This document shows, piece after piece, positions 4,609-17,488 of a stretch of DNA of 27,914 nucleotides. The notes under the pieces were generated by a model, which was not told the origin of the DNA, did not search any database, and saw only the letters and a list, made by a program, of their open reading frames with translations. The position numbers and the translations under genes were made by a program. The first letter of the stretch is position 1. Each line of letters starts with the position of its first letter. The stretch comes from Ectocarpus siliculosus (lineage: Eukaryota > Sar > Phaeophyceae > Ectocarpales > Ectocarpaceae), in the NCBI GenBank assembly GCA_000310025.1, contig FN649734.1, positions 1,967,157 to 1,995,070 of the forward strand, given 5' to 3'.

Positions 4609-5156
4609 CTGGTAAAACAGCAAGTCACGCCGCGGGTTCGGGTACATACGTCACGAACTGCATTGTTTCGTTGTTAGGGAGGTTGGGGGAGATTCGCTCC
4701 CGGGATGGTCGCTGTGCTGCAGTATCTTCATGGCCATCTTTCTACATCCAACCTTCTTGGGTGGTTGTGTGGAGGCGTCTCCGGCGCTCACAGGCAAAAG
4801 TAGCGATAAACGTGGCCGACAGGCGAAAAACACCCGGATACCGTCCGTTTCTCTTGAGCGGCATCTCTCGCATGCATTGCAAGACGGTACACTAAGGTGT
4901 ACCATAAAGTAGTTAGCCGCCGCACTTAACAGCTCGGCAGTGAAGAAACTTATTCAGCCTCAAAAATCTCAAAGCCTAAGAACTACACGTAAGAACTTCA
5001 GCCTCGGCCAATACTAGAGGTCCTTACGTGCGGTCGCTAACTGCACACACACGTCTACGAGTTACGCCGGACTAAATAGACACCTGGGAGTTCGGCGGAG
5101 ACCACTGGCGGGGGCGCCGTGAGATCGAGCGGCTCGTTCCTGGAACCAACCAACGT
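4609..5156 (-). other. Intron or intergenic gap
   Basis: No convincing exon lies here. If the exon at 4451-4608 belongs to the large gene, this stretch is intron; if not, it holds that smaller gene's 5' end. A minus-strand reading frame at 4651-4905 is open but lacks a good donor. Confidence 0.4.
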
Positions 5157-5396
5157 TCAGCACCCACCGAGAGAGAACGTGCGCGTCGTCGCAGAGGAAA
5201 TAAATACGGACACCGGCAACGGTGCGGTGGGGGCGTGGATCATGTCAAACAAAACGGCGGCGGGTGGTGCGTGTGCGGCGGGTGTATGTAGCAAAGTGTG
5301 GAAAACATGTTTGTTGAGGCAAGCTTGAAATCCGGCCTCCAACACAAAAATGTCACCCACGCCAAGCCCCGGCAACACGGCATACAATTCCGCGGT
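5157..5396 (-). CDS. Exon: C-terminal tail after the membrane span
   Basis: Acceptor CTTGCCAG precedes 5396, and the phase matches the exon ending at 5511 (intron 114 bp). It reads TAELYAVLPGLGVGDIFVLE and continues to TTRTFSLGGC, with a TGA at 5157-5159. Two outcomes are possible. The protein may stop here, or a weak GTGCTG donor at 5158-5163 (left edge 5164) may splice in phase to 4608 and on to the TAG at 2113. If the topology guess is right, the tail is cytoplasmic. Confidence 0.5.
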   Translation of the reverse strand, partial: TAELYAVLPGLGVGDIFVLEAGFQACLNKHVFHTLLHTPAAHAPPAAVLFDMIHAPTAPLPVSVFISSATTRTFSLGGC

Positions 5397-8300
5397 CTGG
5401 CAAGCCGCGGACTAAGTATTCTGAAGGCAGGGATACCCCTAGTTGCGCGAACAATTCCCTCTTTCCGACAACATGCCAAAAATCACCCGCCCGTGTAAGT
5501 ACACACATACCTGTCGGTCAGCGACGTAGACCACGAGCCCCCAGCAAGCCCGATGCACGAGGAACACGAGGACGATGGCGAGCACGGCCACGAACCCGAC
5601 TGCGAAGACGACACGCGCAACTGGGTGGATCGCGCGCACAACGACCCCGAACTGTGGGTCCAAGACGAAGCGGAGGCAAGACCACAGACGGGACAGCAGG
5701 ACAAGGCTCTCTTTCCAGTTCGCCACGGCGTGCGATGCCCAAGCAACCGCTGGGATCGCGGGCAGGAAGCGGAGAAAGAGCCTCAAGTGTTCAACTCTCC
5801 CTGGAGCCAGGAGAGCTGTCGTCGCCCTGTAGACGATCGGCCTCGCCGCGACGATGATGGCAGCACCGCCACGCGCCACTCTGGGGACGACCCACCTCGC
5901 CGCCGCGATGATGGCAGCATCGACACGCGCCGCCATGTCGAAGACCCACCTCGCCGCCGCGATGATGGCAGCACCGCCACGCGCCGCCTTGTCGACGATC
6001 CATCTCGCCGCCGCGATGATGGCAGCACCGCCACGCGCCGCCCTGTCGACGACCCACCTCGTCGCCGCGATGATGGCAGTGCCGTGCCCCCAGGCCAGCC
6101 TGAACGGCAAGGCGGCTAGGCCCACAGCCTGGCCGAACAACAGCACATGCAAGATGAGCTGTGCCCACAACACCGACTCGACGTCGTCGTAGTCGTCGTC
6201 GCAGTAGTTGTCGTCGCAGAAGCCGTTGACGTCGTCGTAGTCGCAGAAGCCGTCGTAGTCGTTGTAACCGTCGTCGTAGTCGCAGAAGCCGTCGACGTCG
6301 TCGTAGTCGCAGAAGCCGTCGTAGTCGTTGTAACCGTCGTCGTAGTCGTAGTCGTACTCGTCGATGTTGTCGTACTCGCTATCGTCGTCGAAGGCATAGA
6401 CGTCGTCGCAGTAGTCGTAGTCGTCGTAGTCGGCACGGTCGGTAGGGCTGACGACCTCGTCAGGAGAGCAGACCAGGGCGAAGAAGTCGTCGGCTCGTTC
6501 GACCTGAGGTGCGACGAGTGGGAGAGAGGCCAGGAGGGCGAGAGGCGTAGGAGTCAGCAGGATGAGCGACAAAAGAAAAGAGGTGTCCAACTGAACATGG
6601 GGGGGAAGGTCGGAAGCAACGAAGCTGCTGGACTACGACCTCACGATCTCGCAGAAAAAGCGTGCTAACTGTCCTCCTCTAGTCGCGTCGAGTATTCTCC
6701 TGCCTGCGACCCAACTCTGAGATGGTTGGAAGTTCATTGCATACCAGCGAGTTTCAGGTGAACCGCTGCACGATCGGGGCGTCGCGAACAGAATACTTGT
6801 GTACTGGCAATGTGTAAGCCATCCTGCAGCTTTATCACCTGCTTTGGAGGCCCATGCACGTGAGCGATAGCTGAGGTAGCCGAGGAATTTCCCAGCGTTA
6901 CGACGATCTGGTAGTCTCCCTCGCTCGGAGGAACGTAGGTGACCGTGTAGCTACCGTTGAGGGAATCACTCCTGCAGAGGTACGTGCAAACGTCGCATCA
7001 AGCGTCTCTTAGTGCATCAAGCAGAACGCGCTGTGTGCGGCGGAAGTAAAAGTGGCAAGCAGTAAAGTCACAATCAACAGAGTGGAGGTGTGCCGTTCGA
7101 GGACACTTTTAGCGTTCGCCGAAGCTGCAGTTCCTGCTCTATTGTTGTTGCTCTGCGTCGGCTTCTTCTTCAACTCCGGTATTCAATACCTCCTTTTTCG
7201 TTGTGTTCAAAACAAAGAAAAGGAATTTTCGTGGTTGGTGAGAGACCTACAAAACAACCACCGAGAAAGCGCCCTACCGTGGAACGAACACTTCGTTGGC
7301 CATAGCGAGAGGTTCACGGTGTTGGCAAACATCTGCAAAGGTTTACGGTTGGCTACCTGGCGAAGCAAAGTACGGCTCACAAGCAAACGTTTTGTGTGCC
7401 TGTTTGCAAAAATCTCACTGCCTGCTTGCGGCAAGCCGCGTCTCACGCGTTCAAGGTCGATGACGTTCCACGTAAAGCCTCGAAATATCCTTATTGCCAA
7501 CAAACGTTTTGCTGACGGGAAACGTTGTGCCCGCCGGAAAGTCTTGGGGAACGCTACCGGCAACGCATCAACACACACAGTAGTTCAAATCGTGTGTTCA
7601 GCAGTATCGCGCCGATCAGCCGGCTGCTATGTACGCCTACACCTTCGTGAAACCGGACTCACACGACTTGGGCGTCTGAATCAGAAGTAGGGAGTCCACC
7701 GTGGTCAGCGATGCCGTTGGCGGTGGCGTGCCACTCGTCAGACCTCGTACGGAACCGCTTGTTCCCAAAGGCGTCACGAGAGGTGATCGTGAACGCGCAC
7801 TCGTTCAGTCTCTGCCGATTGAGAAAGAGAGAGAGGGGGAGAGACGGAATAATGGCGTGTGACGCGGGACGATAAGTTTGTTGCCATGCGGTGAGTCACC
7901 GAGGGCTACACCATTGAGGTGTACACATTCTTCCTCGACAAGTGGTTATTTCCTACTACATAGGGTAAAAAGGTCCGGAGAAGGACAAACAGCCTACTCA
8001 GTAGTCCATGTAACACGCAACAATGTTGACACACATACCCGCTTCTCAATCAAGCACTCATGCAGTCCCCGTCCGGCGATGGACGACTGGGTCGCGGAGA
8101 CCTCACCGGGCAAGACGAAGACGCCGGCCAGTTGGACGTCGTCGTCGAAGAACTGGTGCGTCCGAACCATGCCCTGCGAACCATATCGGAGGAGAGTGGG
8201 GCAACACAAGCAGGACGGGCGCGTATAGGGTAGGTTAGGTTCTTCCACCGACCAACATAGCACGAGTTTATGCCAACAGATTGAGGCGTACGAAGTTCGT

Positions 8301-11300
8301 TGTAGTGCAGTCAACAAGCATCGAATCAGACGCGCAATTTCCGCTCCCAACACCAAGTATTGCACGAGCAACCAGTTTGCCTGGTCACCTCTTGTCCACC
8401 TTGCCGACAGCTCATTTTGTGCACCGCTACAACAAACGCCACTATCTTCGCGATACTGAGAACATCAGATACTCCCTCCCTCGACATGGACAAACAGTGC
8501 AGCAGCATCCCACACGGGGTATTCCATCCACCCTTACCTGCGCCCCGAGGTGTCGTGGCTGGCCAACGCGTTCCGTGAAGTCCAAGAACGCCTTGGATGG
8601 CCCGCCTGGGCCAACGAAAGCGCTCTGCACGACGTACCACCCGACAGCGATAGGCGTGAACGATCCCACGAACCCGGCGTTACCATTCAGGTCGGGGCCA
8701 TCGATCACCATCTCCAGGTCGACCAGAAACGGCTCCGACTCTACGTCGACGTCGGCGCGGGGGTCGGGGAAGCCCCGGACGCGGATCGCGAGACATTGGC
8801 CTGGCGGCAGGTTGCTCGGGTCGATGACGTTGCCGTACTCGTCGCTGGGGGTGGCCGTGACGCGGTGCTGGAGTCCAGCAACCCCGGAATGTTCGATTTG
8901 AAGGAAGGGTGCATCGGCAGAACACAAAGTTGGACGTGAGTCTGCGGTTTCGCACTGTAGGGGGGTACGAGATCCCTGCCGGAAGAAGAACGTACCGGCC
9001 TTGCCGTCGACAATCATACTCCTACGCATAGCACAAAGTCAGGGTGCGCGTGGCGGACGGGTACGTCTAAGTTAGCCGCTCCGTTTTCTCGAAGGCTGCG
9101 TTCGCTCTACATGCCGATGCCTTTAAATCATGCCAAGTGCTGTGGATGCAAAACCCCCTTGGTCCCACCTTTCAAGTCCTGAACTGCCCCCTGAAATGGG
9201 AACTATTCTCCTATTCAAATCGAGGCGGCCCCATACCCCTCTGAGAGGGGGAAGTGAGACCGTACAGCAACCAACTAATCTTGCTGTCTTGCGAGATAAA
9301 TCCACAAGCGTCTGTTGAGAATGATGGAACACCTGTCGTGAGCTTCCTACGACGTTCACCGAGCACTTTCCGTTGTACTATTTCTCACCTCGTCCACCTG
9401 GAGCTTCCCCTGAGGCCTTCGAACGACGGCAGGACGGTGACGTCTCCCATCGATCCCGACGGTGGGATCATGGCGCCGGCGACGAGAACTTCGGCGGAGA
9501 AATTCCCGGCGAGCACCGGGGTGTACTCGATCACGTACCTGGGAATCGTTCGGCCAGGAAGAGAGCGAGCGGGACAGTTGCGTGTGAATGTTGGACGTGT
9601 GTCGTAAGGCAACCTGTGCAGACGACAGCTCATGGTTGCCGTATTTCTGAGATATATATTGAGTCCGCTCGTGTCATTTCACGGCTTCCTATCCGGCCGG
9701 CAGATGCCTGCTGATAGTGCATGTGGTGTCGACGAAATATGACAACAGAACCCAAGCTGTTGAATGGAAAACCGTTTTGAGAAGACACAAAACAATATCT
9801 GCTGCCGTCACCAACAACGTCGTCTACGTGATTCTCGCATGTATACGGCGACGGGGGGCTATTGGGCTACATTCTCGAGCAACAGAGCATTCTAAAAGTA
9901 TTCCGATTGCGCCACACGCAAGACACGAACCTCGCCGAGCTCTCATCTACCAGTCTTACTATTTGCATCAGGCTTGTCCTAGCAGCCCTACACAACGCGA
10001 CGACTTCTCATAGACCCCAGAACGCAGAGTTCAGCAAAAGCGGCAACCCGCCCAGGTAATGATAAATAAGGTTTGGGAAACAGGCCTCAGCAATGCACCA
10101 ACCTTCGTTGTCGTCTTGACTCACCGGCCTTGCCCGACGTACGAAACGGAGTCGACGGCCTTCGTCACTTGGCGAATGGAGACGTGGGACACGCCGACAT
10201 ATTCCGAAATCTTGAGCTCCGGAGGTGCGCCGTTGGTGCGGGAGAATTCTATCATAACCTGTTGGTAGACGGTAGTTAACACAGGGGGGGGGGCGCAGGG
10301 AAAACGCGATATTACTCTCCGAGCAAGAAAAATAAGAGCTCGTAACGACTTATCTACATATCGTTGAAGACGTCGCTCACGCACGATACCTATGTGCACA
10401 ACATCTCTATGAAAAGCAGGCCATCTATGCGACAATATGTCATGCACGCTGTTGTCAAGTTTTTTCATTGGAGGTCGAGCAAGCTCTTGTCGGTATCACA
10501 GATCAATGCCCATGTAAGTTTTGAGCGAATGTCGTCGGGGTTGCGCTCCTTTCAAGCATCTTTACAGCCCAAAATCAAACAATTTCGACTAATAGTCATT
10601 CCTAGTGTGCGCCGCACGCACGCACTACTGTATCAATCAGCTCACCTTGTTACCGCGCGGTCCGCACAACGATCGTTGCCCAAAGGCGGAGGTAACCTGC
10701 ACGCGAACGTGCTTCTGGTGGGCCGAGGCCAACATCTTCTCGAGGTGGTTCCTGATTCAAGGATTTGGCAAAAATACCAGTAGGGCGTATCGCGGAGAGA
10801 GCGCAAGAGGAAGGGTCATCCAGGGATACAATTGAAGTTCCTGACACGCTTAAACAGACAGACTGGTCGTTTTGTGAGTCGGTTGGTTGAGAAATTTCCA
10901 CCGAACGTCGTATGTAGGAATTCCTCATAGAAAAGTGGTAGCTTGTAAAGCAAGAGTATATATCTAATGATGTCTTCACAAAGCTGCTCGTATGTGCTCT
11001 CAGTCGTACTGGGAAAGGTGAGCTACTTGTCAAAAAAACAAAATACCAGACCTTGGAGTTTGTGATTGTTGTTTGGCGCTTACATTACCGGCCGTGCTCT
11101 GCTCTGGTGTGTGTCTACCCAGACAACTTTTGCTGCTGAACTGCTGTTACTGAGCTGTACCCACAAAGACTCCGTGCGTTCGACCAGGGCGCAACCAGGG
11201 CGCATTGTTATGGATGCTCTCAACACAAGATGAGGTATACGTGTACATACAAATTCGGGAAAAGCCAAGTACATGGCGAACACGGCCATCTGATGCATTG

Positions 11301-14300
11301 TATCCGTCACAGGCTACACGAGGTATACCTGTACATACATGTTCCTTCAAGTCGGGAAAAGCCGAAAACAGGGCGAACACATCCTATGTGATGGTCTCTA
11401 TCGGGCCTGCGGTCACACCTGAGGTCCTGAAGGGTGCCGCGGGCCTCTACGAAGGTATCCCTTCTGAACATGTTGAGCCGAAACCCAAAGTTGCTCGACA
11501 TCGTCCCGGTCGGTTCGTTGACGGTGCAGGTTAGCTCCTGCTTCTCGTGCATCGCGATCACCGGATCAATGTCGTCGGACGGCGGAGTGTAGGCGTGACT
11601 GTTATTGGCGAACAGCGAGAACCGCAGCGTGACCAGATCTCGTGAATCGACCTACGTTTGCGGCGCGCGAAGAAACGAAACGGCGGAAAATTGAGAAAAA
11701 CATCAAACGAGCCACAGCTCGATCGAATACATATCGCTTTCGGTCGGCACGCAGTCGTGAGGGACGAGACACTCACGCAGACCTCCATTCTGTACGTGCT
11801 GTTCCTGCTTCTGCCGTTGCCATCGTTGTCGATATTATGTTTCGTGTTGATGTCTCTGCTTGTCTCAAAACGGCTGAATGCTCCATCAGGTCGGGGTAAC
11901 AGCCTACTATGGCGAAACGAAACCCGCCCAACAGGGCAGGGAAGGCGGTGGTAGTACTGACTGGACCTGGTTTACGGCCGGAGTTCCCTTGACGATCTCG
12001 GTGACGCGGATGCCTCGAGACGGCCGGTCACGGCCGGAGGGCCAGGTGGACTCTTCTTCGCTCGTGGAGCCAAGCAGGGGCTGCACAGAAACAAACCGCG
12101 AATGGCGCCAAGATTGAGGTTGACATCGATCAAGCTATTGCGGGAGTGGACACCCGGGCATAGAACAAAAATATGTATTCACTCTGCTGTTGAGTTCACC
12201 CATGACCATCAGGCATTGTCTTTCTTCCGGAGAGATCAAGACCAGTGCAAGTACCCCTCTTACCGGTAGCCCCCGTCTGCTCTAGTGCATTCTTGACCAT
12301 TGAACAAGTCTACTTACCCTCTATCTGCGCTTCCAAGAGCCTGCTGTTGCCAATGACACACCTATCATATGTATGCCCTGCGAATGTATCAGAAGGGTGA
12401 GGTAGTCTCGGCGGACGACACTAGCATATAGCTTACCTCGCCTCGACGGATAACACTATTGTAGTAGATAATATAGCACAGTATACCTCGTGGTCGCCCT
12501 CGAAGGTCGGGCAAGGGTGGACGCGTTCTGCCTCCTCCCCCGGACCGTTGGAGCACTTGCCCATGCTGTCGCCATGGAACGTAACCAGCCACAGAGGAGA
12601 CAGCTCGTCAACGGGCGATCTCGTGACCGTTGCTGAGGGAGCGCGGAGCCCTTGGAGGGCCTCAGCCACCTTGCCTAAGTCCCGAATATAACACAAAGGG
12701 GGCAGACACTCACATTATTGCTTGGAGAAAGAGAGAGGGAGGCGAGCTCGGTTTTTTGTCACTTTGATGCATGGCCTTCAACAACAAAAAACACGGGCAC
12801 AGTCAATGCGGGAGCTAGTTCTGTCAATCAGCTTCTTGGCGAGGAATTGTCTGCCTATCTAAGCATGACGTCGGCACCTCAAGGATATACACGCTCAATT
12901 GTTGCACACACACGTCGGGAATCACACCGCATTGGGGAGACCGGGAAGCAGCCTTCCTCCCTCGCAACCAATCACGATCGCACGCCGTCGGAAAGAATAA
13001 CGAGAGATTAGGATTTGCGATAACTCTCTTGACAACGACAACACGTGTGGTCTTTCCGGGTACAACGATCCCGAAGCCATCTATCTCATCCTCACCAGCG
13101 CTCGCTCCGAAGGGGATGGGCAGGGTGCGCTCGCCACCGTAGGCCAGCTCGAATGTTTGCGGGAGATCTCCCACGCACGTGCCGTTCCCGTCTGATCCGT
13201 TTCCCTGGCAAGGCGGCGAACATTCAACACACCCGGACAAAGACAATGCAGTACGCCGGGGTTGAGACTGTGACGCTGCGTAGTAGGCTACGACCTCATC
13301 GTCATGCATGCTATTGAACACATCTGTCGTTTCCTTCTCTTCGCGCGAGTCCGTATTATTGTTCCGAAATTCCGTTCGACGCCTCAATTCCTCGAGACCG
13401 CAGGACTCTGCCTGCATTTACACGACATCTTCTAGTGGCCTATGCACCAATCATACCGCTGTCCACCCCGACAGAACCTGCACTCCGGGCTGATCGGCGA
13501 TGACGCGGGCCTGCACGACGACCCTCAGGCGCTTCCCTGCAACTCCCCCGTGAAGACCAGTGCCCGTTGCCGTCGACAAGGAAGCCTTGGTGCGCACGCT
13601 ATTATAGTTGCTTGGACGACTCGAGACCCGCCATCGATCACCTGGGTGGACGGGGGGGTATTCGAGCAAGGTGCAAGCATGTCCTATCGTTTACTTTCAC
13701 AGGAATTCCTGAAATTAAACGAGGGCGCGATTCTACGTGTGGGACATGAATTGGTGAAGTCTGAAGCGATAGTGGTCTAAACATCTTGATATGTTGTACA
13801 CCAATATTGTGTACGTTCGGGCGTACACTTGGGCCAATGCGACTTCTAAGCGAGCGGTGCGTCCAATGGTGTCTACTGCACACGGCATACATGCCATTGG
13901 CCGGTGTTGTGCCGGACATTGCTAACTGTTTGGCTAAGTGCATCTTCGAAAATCCATGTTGTGTACCGTCGTGAACAAGCTAGCGCGTGATATGCATGTA
14001 TGCCACCCGGGCAACAATTGATGCTCGAGAAATGTCACACCTGTCCCGCCACGTCCGTGATGCTCATGTCGTAGCGCCCGGGGATGCGCAGAGTGTACTG
14101 GATGGGGTACACTCCATTGGAAGCCTCATGGTCCACGGAAACGATCGTGCGGCCATCTTCAGCGGGGGTCACGCGCAGAGGGCTCTCGCTCCATTCCTGG
14201 TCTGGGTAGTGTTGTTTGTAGGAGGGGGTACGAAATTACACAACCCGAGTGGCGTGAATCGATGATCGCCGGGGTCCAAGGAACAACACCAGCAACACAG

Positions 14301-17300
14301 GCACAGGCTATACTAAACGGAATGGAACACTGCGCTGCCCTCTGTGCATCCTCCCCATCTTGCGTCAGCAGGTCTTACCGTTCAAGGGGGCGTCTCCTAC
14401 TCAGGCCCAGCTAGAATTCAGTCGAGCTCTCTTGGGGTGATTTGCAGGCGATGTATGGTCGCACTTTACCGCACAAGCCATGATTTCGACTTGCAAGGTG
14501 AAGTTGAACCGTTCGCCGCACAACGTGTGCGTCAAAATCCACCACCCGCAGAGAGCTCGACCCCCGTGCTTTCTGGCCAGGTGCAGCACACACTGTATCT
14601 TACCATATGCAGCAGAGTTCGACCAGACGCGAACACACCGGGTGGGACATACCACCCCCAGAAAGCACAACGCTCGTGCAGTCTAGTCATCCGTACTCAC
14701 CTTGACCTGCACGGTGAACTGCGACGGCGCGTCGCTCACCGCGCGCGACAAGTTCCCAGAGAGCTCGACGCGGGTGCACTCTTGCGGGGACAGAGTGGGA
14801 GACGAGAAGACCTGCGAATGCAAGATGGGCAAGATGCGCAGGGGTGAAGGTGTTGTGTTATTTGCCATATCGCAAGTGAGGGTGTCACTTGTTTAGGATC
14901 GTTATCGTCACACAGAGGGGGGGTCGCGTCCTTAGAATATCCTCTTCGGCCATTCCCGAACAACATTCAAACCACGACATAGTTCGGGATTTTTGAAGTC
15001 CAGCATCCTCTCTCGTGAGGCAAGTCACCATCGAAAACCAATAGTACAGACGAACACGTTGTGTGGATCGGTTCGGAAAAAACCTTCTTGCATACGGCAG
15101 TAGACTAAATAGTGTATCTATGCATATGTACTGTAGACAAAGTGTTAATTAACGGGACAAGGGTGGCGTGATTCTCGAGACGGAGATAGATGATTGACGT
15201 TCGATATTTGGGGGTGGAGTCGGGAGAGGTGGCCTTACGCCTACAGCCAGATACCAGCAGTCTTCTCATTGATGGAGCAACCTATTTTATGAGAGATGAG
15301 AGCGACTTGTTGTTGGGTACATGAGACATAAGACTACAGTACATGGATAGACTATTGTCCTTATTGAAACACTCGCCTACCACATAGTGACAAACGCAAC
15401 GTAGTCTAGCAATTGACCGGCACGATAGGAAGGGGCGTTCGTTATTCTTCCTAAGGGCCAGTGCTATACTTGCGCAACCTGCAACAAACCGACCTGGGGC
15501 ACGCGAAGGATTGGCCTGAAGAACTTGCCGACCTTCTTCCTCCAGTGGGCGGACGGAGACTCGGTCGCTTGCCACGAGGCGATGTCGTCCTCGTCGCCTG
15601 AAAATCACAGCGAAAGACCACGACGTGAATAAGGTTCATGGGTTGACGGAGGAGGAGGGGGGCAGCTTACGCGCCATGAATGACCCCCCTCTAAACTACG
15701 TACTGCTGTGCAGTCAAATCAGTCCCAAGTACTCGTTGAAGCTGGTTGAAGTGCACACAAACGAAGTGAACACTCTTTGGCGACTTACCGGAATTGTAAG
15801 ACAAGTCACATCCATCGCACCAAGGCAATCTTCATCTCGATCCAACGTCCGCCCCACATTGCCTACACCGTGAGCTATATACGATGGTATTCATTGCAAT
15901 AGCTTTATCTGATGGCCTACGCCCTACCTTATGCAGCAGCTACCCCGCTGCCCAGGCTGAAAATATCCCGCGAGTTTTTTTTCGGGTGCTATCATTGGCC
16001 GACGTCCACAGTGCTGTCGCAGGTCTGATGAAGACAAGGCGGGCGGGCGCCTGTGTCCTCTATCTCTCTGTCCTTCAGAAGTCAAGGTGCCACCACATTT
16101 GATGCTTGCCCTACATAGCCAAGCTGCTTTTGATTGCGGTTGGGCATAGATAAGTGTTTGCGGCGGCCTATTAGTCTATGTCTCTACAGCAGAACATACG
16201 TGAACATACGTGTAGTCTCGATGTATGACGTCCATATGGACGACGTGCTGGTTTATGTAGCAGCCCACTCAACACACATGGACAGCAGCAGCGGTTGCAC
16301 ACACCACACGCAGAGAGCATGGCGCACGAACCGTGCCCCTCTCAAAGTTTCCACAGAGATCAAAGCAATCTGATGCAACATTGTATGTGTGGATTGGCAT
16401 CAGAGGGCGAGCCTCAGGGACTTCTAGACTACGTAGGCCTACGTATTATCCTTCACCAGCGATCTCGCAACGGAAGTCGGGGATAAGGTGTGTGTTTTTA
16501 CGATTCTCGCGGATGTCGACATTGCATGGACACCCGCCACGTGAGAAATCCTTGCCCGGCAAGTATCTTACCATGCGCAACTGTACAGCTTTTCTTTCAC
16601 ACGCAATACTGTACCCCCTTCTGTGCTGCACTGAGGGGCTGCCGCTGCTACGTACCGCTGCGGGAAATATTACGATTTCCAGTCCTTCGGTTTACCCGCC
16701 AGATCTTTTTCATGGATTGCAAGTCCACCCACGTACACGATTCTGCCAATCTACAGTCTGCGGCCAACATGAGAAGGCGCGGAGGTTACTAGAAGTTTGT
16801 GCGTATTCGCTATTCCCACGTGATACGACGCAGGAGGTGTCGCAACCCGATGTTGTTAAGCCTGCATGGGTGGCAAAAAGTATGCGCGCACGGTGAACTC
16901 CGCTTGTTACCCGTTACTTTTTTTTCGGGGAAGCAAGTCGTGTTCGAAATACAGTATAGACCGCCAGTACCTCGGTAGAGCGGCATAGACTATGGATGAA
17001 TATGTGGTGTGCGTTCACAGGAAACGTACAGCAGCTCGGTCGCCTCATCTTCACTTACCTCCTGCGAGCTGCGCGAAGGATGGGGCGGGAAACCTGACGC
17101 CGTTGTTGCCGACCAAGACGTCGATCTGGAGTCAGGCGCAACAGAGCAGACGTACGCACGAAAACAGCGGCGAGATGCAGGGAGTAAATTTAGACAGATG
17201 CTCCGGATATTGCTGTAGCCTTTGTACTCTCGAACTGCTACTGCAGCAGCAGACGCGATCTATTATTGTTAGAAAGAAGGTTGGCCACTGAATGTATCCA

Positions 17301-17488
17301 TTGCGGAGACCTGTAGTCTGCACCTTGAGATCCCTTCGACTGGACTTACCGCGGGCGGGCGTGGAGTGTCCTCCTACGGAATTGACTCCTGCCATGGCGA
17401 CGCCGACGTGCATCAGGATCATTGCGGTGAACGAGATGTTGAGTGCGCTCATCGTCCTGCCTAGGCGGGCCATGTCGCCTCTCCTCAT
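5157..17488 (-). CDS. Large membrane-anchored filamin/Ig-like repeat protein (multi-exon gene model)
   Basis: Exons, 5' to 3' on the minus strand: 17488-17350, 17125-17059, 15597-15494, 14811-14701, 14572-14470 and 14396-14379 (both weak), 14201-14041, 13585-13457, 13204-13096, 12674-12487, 12080-11976, 11651-11419, 10751-10646, 10258-10125, 9538-9389, 9021-8538, 7811-7663, 6971-6839, 6503-5511, 5396-5157. From 14811 to 5511 every junction keeps codon phase, which chance exons would rarely do. The predicted order is signal peptide, filamin-like repeats with two GTF-L-F modules, acidic Asp/Tyr tract, 18-residue helical repeats, one membrane span and a short tail. Filamin-type Ig repeats bind or bridge other proteins. 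A secreted, membrane-tethered array like this suggests a surface or cell-wall-facing adhesion role, which is inference. The main doubts are a phase conflict between the first two exons and the choice between several donors. Confidence 0.6.
5511..6503 (-). CDS. Exon: acidic DY tract, five 18-residue helical repeats, membrane span
   Basis: The exon is 993 bp (331 codons, phase 0 at both ends), with a textbook pyrimidine tract ending CACCTCAG before 6503 and donor GTATGT at 5505-5510. The first third is almost only D, Y, C, N, F and G, with a 22-residue repeat built on DGYNDYDGFCDYDD. After a short hydrophobic stretch come five copies of GGAAIIAAARWIVDKAAR (18 residues). A helical wheel puts R, D, K and W on one face and I, V and A on the other. 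Near the end, VVFAVGFVAVLAIVLVFLVH is a clear membrane span. An unspliced reading would start at the ATG at 6590 with a leader-like peptide, but that leader is better explained as the intron's pyrimidine tract. I know of no family with this order of elements. Confidence 0.6.
5834..6100 (-). repeat. 54-bp coding tandem repeat, five copies
   Basis: The word GATGATGGCAG (plus strand) recurs at 5853, 5907, 5961, 6015 and 6069, an exact 54-bp period. On the minus strand each unit encodes 18 residues of the AAIIAAARW type. The middle copies are nearly identical at DNA level and the outer ones have drifted, which suggests expansion by unequal exchange. Confidence 0.9.
6228..6359 (-). repeat. 66-bp coding tandem repeat (acidic tract)
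   Basis: Two adjacent 66-bp copies start at 6228 and 6294 and encode a 22-residue Asp/Tyr/Cys unit. The surrounding 6181-6440 is GTC/GTA/TCG-rich low-complexity sequence of the same type, so repeat-number variation between individuals is likely. Confidence 0.8.
6504..6838 (-). other. Intron
   Basis: Acceptor AG is at 6504-6505 after a pyrimidine tract of about 70 bases. The donor is GTGATA at 6833-6838, and GTGCAT at 6854-6859 is an in-phase alternative. An open reading frame through the acceptor tract resembles a signal peptide but is probably intronic. Confidence 0.5.
6839..6971 (-). CDS. Exon: second half of last filamin-like repeat
   Basis: It encodes DSLNGSYTVTYVPPSEGDYQ and ends SATSAIAHVHGPPKQ. 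The N-G-S-Y-x-V-x-Y-x-P...G-x-Y pattern is the hallmark of the second half of a filamin/ABP280 repeat. Acceptor CTCTGCAG precedes 6971, and the leading G completes a Val codon from the exon ending at 7663. The left edge could be 6839 or 6860; both leave phase 0. Confidence 0.8.
6972..7662 (-). other. Intron
   Basis: Donor GTGAGT is at 7657-7662 and acceptor AG at 6972-6973. A 212-codon plus-strand ORF lies inside it with no recognisable content, so it is treated as chance. Confidence 0.7.
7663..7811 (-). CDS. Exon: first half of last filamin-like repeat
   Basis: It encodes RLNECAFTITSRDAFGNKRF and ends TSDSDAQVV. F-T-I-x-S/A-R-D-A-F-G-N is the classic filamin-repeat strand pattern. The acceptor has a long CT tract ending GGCAG and the donor is GTGAGT. 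The phase fits both neighbours, so with 6839-6971 it makes one whole repeat. Confidence 0.85.
8538..9021 (-). CDS. Exon: filamin-like repeat
   Basis: It encodes 161 complete codons, starting SMIVDGKAGTFFFRQG. A filamin-like core follows, with GLQHRVTATPSDEYGN (first half) and NAGFVGSFTPIAVGWYVV (second half). It ends RHLGAQ before donor GTAAGG (8532-8537). Acceptor TGCGTAG precedes 9021. Two further acceptor-like sites inside the frame would shorten it, but only this one keeps phase with the exon ending at 9389. Confidence 0.8.
9389..9538 (-). CDS. Exon: end of a filamin-like repeat
   Basis: It begins YVIEYTPVLAGNFSAEVLVA, the closing strands of an Ig-like filamin repeat, and then SGSMGDVTVLPS. 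Acceptor ATTCCCAG precedes 9538, and the leading G completes an Arg codon from the previous exon. Donor GTGAGA is at 9383-9388; an alternative GTGGAC donor about 10 bases upstream in the transcript is also near phase. Confidence 0.8.
10125..10258 (-). CDS. Exon: GTF-L-F module 2, central part
   Basis: It encodes VMIEFSRTNGAPPELKISEY and ends SVSYVGQGR, with donor GTGAGT. The acceptor CAACAG follows a C-rich tract with a run of about ten C. The I/V-EF...NG-PPEL pattern corresponds to the VTF...G-PL strand of these modules and leads directly into the Y-x-I-x-Y closing strands of the next exon. Confidence 0.85.
10646..10751 (-). CDS. Exon: GTF-L-F module 2, helix/strand part
   Basis: It encodes NHLEKMLASAHQKHVRVQV and then TSAFGQRSLCGPRGNK. 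The LE-ML...V-V pattern is the 'x-L-E-x-L ... V-V' section of the module. Acceptor GAATCAG and donor GTGAGC are clear. The leading G completes an Arg codon from the exon ending at 11419, and the end is phase 0, as the next exon requires. Confidence 0.8.
11232..11380. repeat. Two-copy repeat inside an intron of the large gene
   Basis: GAGGTATAC-TGTACATACA, followed by TCGGGAAAAGCC and GGCGAACAC, occurs at 11232-11284 and 11320-11380. The second copy has a short insertion in the middle. Confidence 0.8.
11419..11651 (-). CDS. Exon: GTF-L-F module 2, start
   Basis: It starts VDSRDLVTLRFSLFANNSH, then has MHEKQELTCTVNEPTG and GTMSSNFGFRLNMFRRDT, and ends GTLQDL. The pattern G-T-x-x-x-x-F-x-F-x-L...T-x-x-I/V-x-A resembles a module common in large stramenopile surface proteins. 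Acceptor ACGTAG precedes 11651, the donor is GTGTGA (11413-11418) and the phases fit. Confidence 0.8.
11976..12080 (-). CDS. Exon: linker between GTF-L-F modules
   Basis: It encodes 35 codons, starting PLLGSTSEEESTWPSGRD and ending RVTEIVKGTPA. Acceptor TTTCTGTGCAG is strong. Donor GTAAAC gives this edge; GTCCAG at 11961-11966 would add three residues in the same phase. The V-T-E-I-V-x-G-T ending is typical of the strand that closes this module. Confidence 0.75.
12487..12674 (-). CDS. Exon: GTF-L-F module 1, second part
   Basis: It encodes KVAEALQGLRAPSATVTRS, then LSPLWLVTFHGDSMGKC, and ends CPTFEGDHE. This is the A-L-x-x-L...V-T-V/R-S...W-x-V-T-F section. The two leading bases GC complete the G left at 13096 to give Gly. 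The donor is GTATAC. The extra cysteines suggest disulphides, in keeping with a secreted side. Confidence 0.85.
13096..13204 (-). CDS. Exon: GTF-L-F module 1, first part
   Basis: It encodes GNGSDGNGTCVGDLPQTFEL and then AYGGERTLPIPFGASA. The Q-T-F-E-L-A-Y-G-G...I-P-F-x-A-S-A pattern is the clearest match in the window to the GTF-x-L-x-F...T-x-P-I-x-F-x-A-S-A module. Acceptor TTGCCAG and donor GTGAGG frame it; longer open sequence past the donor is read-through. Confidence 0.85.
13457..13585 (-). CDS. Exon: start of a filamin-like repeat
   Basis: It encodes ASLSTATGTGLHGGVAGK and continues VVVQARVIADQPG. The S-x-A-x-G-x-G-L-x-G-G-V-A-G...V-V-V-Q-A-R start is typical of filamin repeats. Acceptor ACCAAG precedes 13585 with only a modest pyrimidine tract. 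The donor is GTATGA at 13451-13456; an in-phase GTTCTG donor (13472-13477) would drop seven residues. Confidence 0.75.
14041..14201 (-). CDS. Exon: second half of first filamin-like repeat
   Basis: It encodes 53 codons with VTPAEDGRTIVSVDHEASNG followed by VYPIQYTLRIPGRYDMSI. The closing strands G-V-Y-x-I-x-Y-x-L-x-x-P-G-x-Y are diagnostic. Acceptor CTACCCAG precedes 14201 and the donor is GTGTGA. It joins the next exon in phase 0. Confidence 0.85.
14379..14396 (-). CDS. Candidate 18-bp micro-exon
   Basis: It has a good GTAAGA donor (14373-14378) and a GTAG acceptor. Read in the only phase that fits the exon at 14201, it gives DAPLN with Gly and Asp codons shared at its borders, placing a GGD motif where filamin repeats usually have one. 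It is very short and rests on phase alone. Confidence 0.3.
14470..14572 (-). CDS. Candidate exon, or decayed duplicate of exon 14701-14811
   Basis: It is framed by acceptor CCTGGCCAG and donor GTAAAG. It stays open in the phase needed (KARGSSSLRVVDFDAHVV...), leaving one base. Its DNA, however, resembles the exon at 14701-14811: an exact 13-base word, GTCGAGCTCTCTG, and a similar TTCACC-TGCA-GTC block, with 8 extra bases between them. Read in the matching frames it gives STGVELSAGG and then ERFNFTLQV, broken by a frameshift and a stop. It may be a real exon in a new frame or a pseudo-exon. Confidence 0.3.
14701..14811 (-). CDS. Exon: start of first filamin-like repeat
   Basis: It encodes VFSSPTLSPQECTRVELSGN and ends APSQFTVQVK. 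The S-x-x-F-T-V-Q-V strand is the usual filamin first-half pattern. Acceptor CATTCGCAG and donor GTGAGT are both strong. Phase is 0 at both ends. Confidence 0.8.
14812..15493 (-). other. Intron
   Basis: It lies between two phase-compatible exons, and I see nothing notable inside. Its donor is ambiguous: GTCGGT (15488-15493), GTTGCG (15473-15478) or GTATAG (15464-15469), all in the same phase. Confidence 0.55.
15494..15597 (-). CDS. Exon: acidic then basic N-terminal lead
   Basis: It encodes DEDDIASWQATESPSAHW and then RKKVGKFFRPILRVPQ. The acceptor (TGATTTTCAG) is strong. Two leading bases require one base from upstream, which both the exon at 17059 and the signal-peptide exon supply as G. 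Three donor choices would extend it by 0, 5 or 8 residues. I recognise no domain. Confidence 0.65.
15598..17058 (-). other. Long intron, no confident exon
   Basis: This is about 1.46 kb. Donor-like sites at about 15674 (GTAAGC) and 15788 (GTAAGT) end short open stretches, but neither gives a phase that fits its neighbours. No repeats of note. Confidence 0.5.
17059..17125 (-). CDS. Exon: short N-terminal segment
   Basis: It encodes IDVLVGNNGVRFPAPSFAQL plus AG, with one base left over. The acceptor follows an almost AG-free pyrimidine tract of about 75 bases ending ACTCCAG, and the donor is a perfect GTAAGT. Codon choice (GTC, GGC, AAC, GCC) matches the other exons. Its start phase (0) does not fit the signal-peptide exon's end phase (1), so a small exon may be missing or a different donor used. 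Confidence 0.65.
17350..17488 (-). CDS. First coding exon: signal peptide
   Basis: From the ATG at 17488 it reads MRRGDMARLGRTMSALNISF and then TAMILMHVGVAMAG, followed by VNSVGGHSTPAR before a perfect GTAAGT donor (17344-17349). A basic start, a hydrophobic core and AMA|G form a typical cleavable signal peptide, with cleavage predicted after AMA. An internal ATG at 17473 (MARLGR) would serve as well. The frame is open a little further upstream but without another ATG. It sends the protein into the secretory pathway. Confidence 0.7.

Follow-up and report, generated by a model that had tools for sequence, protein, structure and literature searches.

Plant GEX2 and Chlamydomonas FUS1 are membrane proteins of gamete adhesion that carry a filamin-like Ig domain, as described in the available part of PMC9187738. 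An outward-facing filamin-type fold is therefore not new, and filamin-like Ig domains also occur together with cell-surface enzymes (PMC2824669, available part). Filamins/ABP280, the cytosolic actin cross-linkers, carry repeats of the family PF00630. We compared these systems with a locus of the brown alga Ectocarpus siliculosus. The window, meaning the whole stretch of 27,914 nucleotides that was analysed, is C9:1967157-1995070 in a genome of 189 Mb and 492 contigs. Its gene has in common with GEX2 and FUS1 a filamin-type domain, here on a putative membrane protein, but its other modules and its C-terminus differ from theirs. The Ig_GEX2_N model (PF23616) gave 17.7 bits with the window and 18.8 bits with a sister copy elsewhere on contig C9, both below the cut-off of 27; a distant relative on contig C25 reached 27.2 bits with one query and 26.2 bits with another. 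With filamins/ABP280 the gene shares PF00630, but it differs from them in having a membrane-like tail and no Pfam match to an actin-binding (CH) domain in the modelled exons of the window or the sister.

The preliminary description of this DNA had called the protein unfamiliar. This holds for the exact combination of modules and for the 993-bp C-terminal exon, which a genome search placed only in the window and the sister among the matches listed, but not for outward-facing filamin-type domains, which are known from GEX2 and FUS1 (PMC9187738, available part). In a literature search made up mostly of papers outside subscription, we found no study of filamins in brown algae and no work on this gene family, looked for also among stramenopiles, PA14 proteins and giant genes. 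A link to the sex locus was considered and set aside. HMG_box on C9 was limited to a weak match at 4.52 Mb, more than 2 Mb away, which makes it a poor test of the idea, and the available part of the sex-chromosome paper PMC12592211 contains no filamin gene.

Exon chain and filamin-type repeats

A genome search with the spliced protein returned 27 exon matches, 23 of them on C9, in the window and an inverted second copy, and four on C25. The window holds a real many-exon gene on the minus strand, with filamin-type and other surface-protein modules and a membrane-like tail. Its GT-AG exon chain, with matching phases, ends at the stop at 5064-5062. The features are listed below in window positions (-, minus strand; "copies" are the window and its sister).

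17350-17488 (-): candidate first exon, doubtful; ATG and hydrophobic signal-like stretch, donor gtaagt in phase 1
15494-15597 (-): conserved exon absent from the preliminary description; 98.1% identity between copies and no indel, against ~91% in the flanking introns; starts in phase 1, ends in phase 0
14701-14811 (-): exon, probably the first strands of a filamin repeat; 98.2% identity to the sister, no indel
14277-14278 (-): junction where the window lacks 4,502 bp that the sister has (C9:2127699-2132200); from blastn blocks, intronic, between phase-0 sites
14041-14196 (-): exon, later strands of a filamin repeat; C25 has both borders at the same residue and phase
13457-13641 (-): filamin-type exon, frame broken; 185 nt here, 180 nt and open in the sister, by alignment
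13096-13204 (-): first half of GTF-L-F module 1, by profile score of the spliced module; the adjoining 13411-13205 has frame-breaking indels between copies
12487-12674 (-): GTF-L-F module 1, second half; the copies differ unusually strongly here; 82.4% identity, dS 0.41, dN 0.145
11967-12080 (-): linker exon; both borders common to C25
11419-11651 (-): exon of a second, unconfirmed GTF-L-F-like region; acceptor common to C25, profile score no higher than shuffles
10646-10751 (-): exon of the second GTF-L-F-like region; 100% identity between copies, C25 match 3.6e-4
10125-10258 (-): exon of the second GTF-L-F-like region; C25 match 1.1e-11, both borders common
9389-9538 (-): filamin-type exon; one G fewer than the sister, which puts the donor in phase 2, not 0
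8538-8975 (-): filamin-type exon; acceptor 8975 likelier, 9021 possible; C25 match 4.9e-9
8039-8173 (-): start of the best filamin repeat, by Pfam
7663-7811 (-): middle of the best filamin repeat, by Pfam; C25 match 8.9e-8
6839-6971 (-): end of the best filamin repeat, by Pfam; 100% identical in the sister
5511-6503 (-): C-terminal 993-bp exon; 99.5% identity to the sister, one in-frame 9-nt indel
5062-5139 (-): short terminal exon with stop TAA at 5064-5062; 5139-5063 is 100% identical in the sister

The spliced window exons 13411-6839 matched PF00630 in two stretches (7.6e-14, 52.8 bits), and the sister copy matched it at 4.8e-19 (69.4 bits), both above the Pfam gathering score of 26.9 bits. 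The filamin-like repeats of the preliminary description were thus recovered on the joined exons; a PF00630 search of the unspliced genome missed the window. The best window repeat matched filamin-C chains at 8.4e-5, in a search whose hits up to E 1 comprised 29 distinct PDB sequences. Exon 14701-14811 resembles a filamin exon of C25 by eye and, joined to the next exon, gave a weak Pfam Filamin match (0.0024). Structure prediction gave no confident Ig fold: the filamin-type exon 9020-8538, folded alone from a single sequence, had a mean pLDDT of 36.4.

Several exon borders were weighed by comparing the copies and C25. We rejected 13411 as an exon start and preferred 13204 because of the frame-breaking indels between copies. 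Acceptor 9021 was rejected as the ancestral one from the C25 border test and from the divergence of 9020-8976, which is like that of an intron (identity between copies 0.80-0.87, against 0.93-0.97 past 8975). The weak exons drawn earlier within 14379-14572 are possible but not needed, and were set aside, since donor 14701 joins acceptor 14196 in phase (both phase 0) and the 14196 acceptor recurs in C25 at that residue and in that phase. The signal peptide did not hold up as drawn either: exon 17488-17350 diverges like an intron (the copies are 89.6% identical in it and 90.5% identical in the intron that follows), and in the sister a 4-nt indel shifts the candidate first exon out of phase with the next exon. 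The secretion signal of the window gene is a doubtful candidate only.

An Rfam search of the window gave no match, and eight other window ORFs that were scanned had no Pfam match up to E 0.01. A tandem repeat lies at 585-1023 (194 bp unit, 2.3 copies, 90% matches).

The inverted sister copy and the state of the window copy

DNA similarity joins window positions 18941-4074 to C9:2123354-2142682 in inverted orientation, with 137 kb between the copies. Along the duplication, introns included, identity climbs from ~82% (5' end of the gene) to 97% (3' end), a gradient that points to gene conversion or to parts of the unit differing in age. Over exons 14196-5063, 105 of 3,292 aligned bases differ from the sister (0.032 per site), with four indels (1.2 per kb); in the introns between them, 338 of 5,801 bases differ (0.058 per site), with 32 indels (5.5 per kb). 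The pN/pS ratio between copies was 0.59 (p 0.006) over 14 exons, from which exon 13641-13457 was excluded because of its frame. It was 0.70 (p 0.097) when exon 12674-12487 was dropped as well, so the constraint is visible but weak.

Exon 12487-12674 is 82.4% identical between copies, against 92.8% and 90.8% in its flanking introns. Positive selection on this exon was rejected because its dS is also high (0.41, against a dN of 0.145). Local exchange with another sequence may account for the divergence but is unproved, and no third copy that could have served as donor was found in the genome search with the spliced protein.

The sister is open over 1,100 codons in 15 exons, the equivalents of 14196 to 5062. 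It also contains the 4,502 bp, with at least four exons, that are missing from the window at 14278/14277. Four ORFs in this stretch have colinear matches in C25, which places the loss on the window side. The deletion runs from intron to intron, with phase-0 sites on both sides, and leaves the frame intact. Two smaller changes break it: compared with the sister, exon 13641-13457 has 5 nt more and exon 9538-9389 has one G less. These small indels, above all the single G, could be assembly errors. When the exon borders at which the sister is open were applied to the window, 25 stops were obtained, against none in the sister. The phase continuity that had been claimed from 14811 to 5511 therefore fails with the sister's borders. 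An open frame from the ATG at 17488 to the stop (1,171 aa) is obtained in the window only by skipping exon 13641-13457 and taking acceptor 9021 in place of the likelier 8975.

On balance we favour the reading that the window is one of two inverted copies of a modular surface-protein gene, in which filamin-type Ig repeats and GTF-L-F are spliced to a lineage-restricted C-terminal exon. Judged from its sequence, the window is most likely a decaying, or shortened, duplicate of a gene for an adhesion-type protein of this kind, and the sister copy probably makes the protein. The 4.5-kb deletion would have taken whole exons out of the window copy, and the two small indels would then have broken exons 13641-13457 and 9538-9389.

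We consider it rather unlikely that the window is instead a working shortened paralogue, in which skipping of exon 13641-13457 and use of acceptor 9021, offsetting the one-base loss, give a secreted, membrane-anchored filamin-type protein. Although the skipped exon lies between phase-0 sites, the chain is open over 1,171 aa, the large deletion keeps the phase and the last exons are nearly identical to those of the sister, such a gene would need two special splicing events that its relatives do not use. One of them would take in 9020-8976, with its intron-like divergence, and the other would skip an exon whose equivalent C25 keeps; in addition, no constraint is visible in the first exon. The 25 stops, the two frame breaks and the special splicing together favour decay over a shortened working form.

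The 993-bp C-terminal exon

The open exon 6503-5511 contains a D/Y tract (~6437-6168) in which 36 of 90 residues are D and 17 are Y, five 18-mer units (~6080-5811) and two hydrophobic segments (~6173-6102 and ~5612-5544). The Asp/Tyr tract and amphipathic 18-mers of the preliminary description are thus present, and its membrane span has a counterpart in the membrane-like C-terminus. Hydropathy peaks at 1.98 and 3.31 (19 residues), once on each side of the 18-mers. One or two membrane spans, with an outward topology of the filamin part, would be predicted from these segments. The exon has no Pfam match, and fold prediction (AlphaFold, single sequence) gave a mean pLDDT of 51.9, with all structured parts in helix.

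The joining of this exon to the filamin exons, on which the earlier model turned, is supported. Its ORF has no ATG ahead of the D/Y tract, so translation must enter it from an upstream exon. Splice sites 6839 and 6503 are both phase 0 and both kept in the sister, where the same filamin exons precede the exon. GC by codon position is alike in the 993-bp exon (0.66/0.42/0.83) and in the filamin exons (0.62/0.49/0.75). The codon score is best in the coding frame (0.320), with one antisense frame close to it (0.271), as repeats can give. An in-frame 9-nt indel and five substitutions, two synonymous and three not, separate this exon in the two copies.

It is improbable that the 993-bp exon is a frame born of a minisatellite, or part of another gene, and that the protein has no such membrane tail. 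Its tandem units of 54, 66, 39, 27 and 18 nt do give long ORFs in several frames, and it matches neither a Pfam family nor, among the matches listed, any other place in the genome. However, the missing ATG, the conserved phase-0 splice sites, the filamin-like codon-position GC, the best codon score, close as the antisense frame comes, and the in-frame 9-nt indel all argue against this origin. A cytosolic filamin-like actin linker, to which PF00630 and the best solved-structure matches, which are filamins, might point, is very improbable given the lack of an actin-binding domain among the Pfam matches of the modelled exons, the PA14 and FN3 of the relatives and the hydrophobic C-terminus.

The C25 locus and the GTF-L-F module

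The distant relative on C25 has modules in the same order as the window at 32-44% identity. Of 16 exon ends tested there, 12 match in place and phase (12674 and 9538 among them read from printed context). Two others are absent (one intron), 9389 is as in the sister, unlike the window, and 13204 is uninformative. The C25 locus also has three PA14 matches, the sole ones found in the genome, together with filamin and FN3, the FN3 cut-off being passed by one of three ORFs scanned. Over C25:4219815-4332640 the GTF-L-F profile gave 76 hits in 53 ORFs, all on the plus strand; the minus-strand ORFs searched there had no GTF-L-F match. The nine training modules of the profile were taken from this locus and match by construction. 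The locus exceeds 110 kb and includes exons of 1,309, 1,452 and 2,120 codons; it perhaps encodes one giant surface protein. Colinear modules and common intron positions and phases thus unite the window and C25, but C25 is far larger and carries PA14 and FN3, and the D/Y and 18-mer exon was not seen in the part of it that was read. The window gene would appear to derive from a much larger family of filamin/GTF-L-F/PA14/FN3 genes.

The preliminary description had proposed two GTF-L-F modules, of which the first stands. The unspliced ORFs scored 12.2 and 6.9 bits, and joining 13204-13096 to 12674-12487 raised this to 33.9 bits; the best of 1,000 shuffled sequences reached 4.5. The second region scored 2.3 bits, no better than shuffles, and rests only on colinearity with C25. 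Further GTF-L-F modules lie in long open frames at C12:601420-603102 (704 codons) and C2:8140833-8151937 (1,332 codons), so the module serves other genes too.

None of the nine modules matched a Pfam or NCBIfam model at E 0.1. The profile did match gp23, a tail tip cage protein of a phage (PDB 9d93, E 1.3e-25, three repeats passing individually), as well as a major capsid protein (PDB 9d9w, E 5.2e-5), and four of the nine modules matched PHROG 10909, a major tail protein (E 4.1e-8). A tblastn search with a single algal module found no match in 50,697 phage records, hence the link to phages comes from the profile searches. A segment of gp23 matched 318 of these records, 300 named Mycobacterium and 18 Gordonia, and a mixed profile of four phage rows and one algal row found 28 bacterial loci, actinobacteria and planctomycetes being among the groups represented. 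PDB 9d93 appears to be from phage Bxb1, whose tail end is shaped by three added domains according to the available part of a preprint (PMC13252515). The actinobacterial phage virion proteins resemble the algal module by profile but differ in their virion role, and no filamin neighbours were seen.

A wider reading, which we offer tentatively and place on the unlikely side, is that a single module for adhesion or assembly, still without a name, recurs as GTF-L-F in the virions of actinophages, in bacterial proteins and in giant surface proteins of brown algae. One such giant would here have been duplicated in part, and the duplicated part would have gained a new Asp/Tyr-rich amphipathic membrane anchor from tandem repeats, giving a lineage-specific wall or cell adhesion receptor without described counterpart.

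On the reading that we favour, of a modular surface-protein gene in two inverted copies, the C-terminal exon of the protein would likely provide the membrane anchor, the Asp/Tyr tract an acidic spacer beside the amphipathic helical repeats, and the filamin-type and GTF-L-F modules a rod reaching from the membrane to the wall or another cell, where the Ig-type rod may bind glycan or protein. A role as receptor, adhesin or wall-binding protein would be consistent with this arrangement.

Multicellularity arose independently in the brown algae, and to our knowledge few of their adhesion proteins are known. The EsV_1_7_cys repeat (PF19114) is expanded in, and typical of, this group, and the genome studied here, with at least 150 matches to it (150 of 880 candidates scored), is in keeping with a brown alga. 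Our analysis indicates a family of very large genes of modular, surface type, a module that matches no Pfam or NCBIfam model but is shared with phage virions, and a young duplicate pair with a new membrane-like tail. Within this pair the window copy is probably the wrong one to express, and the sister copy the one to choose.
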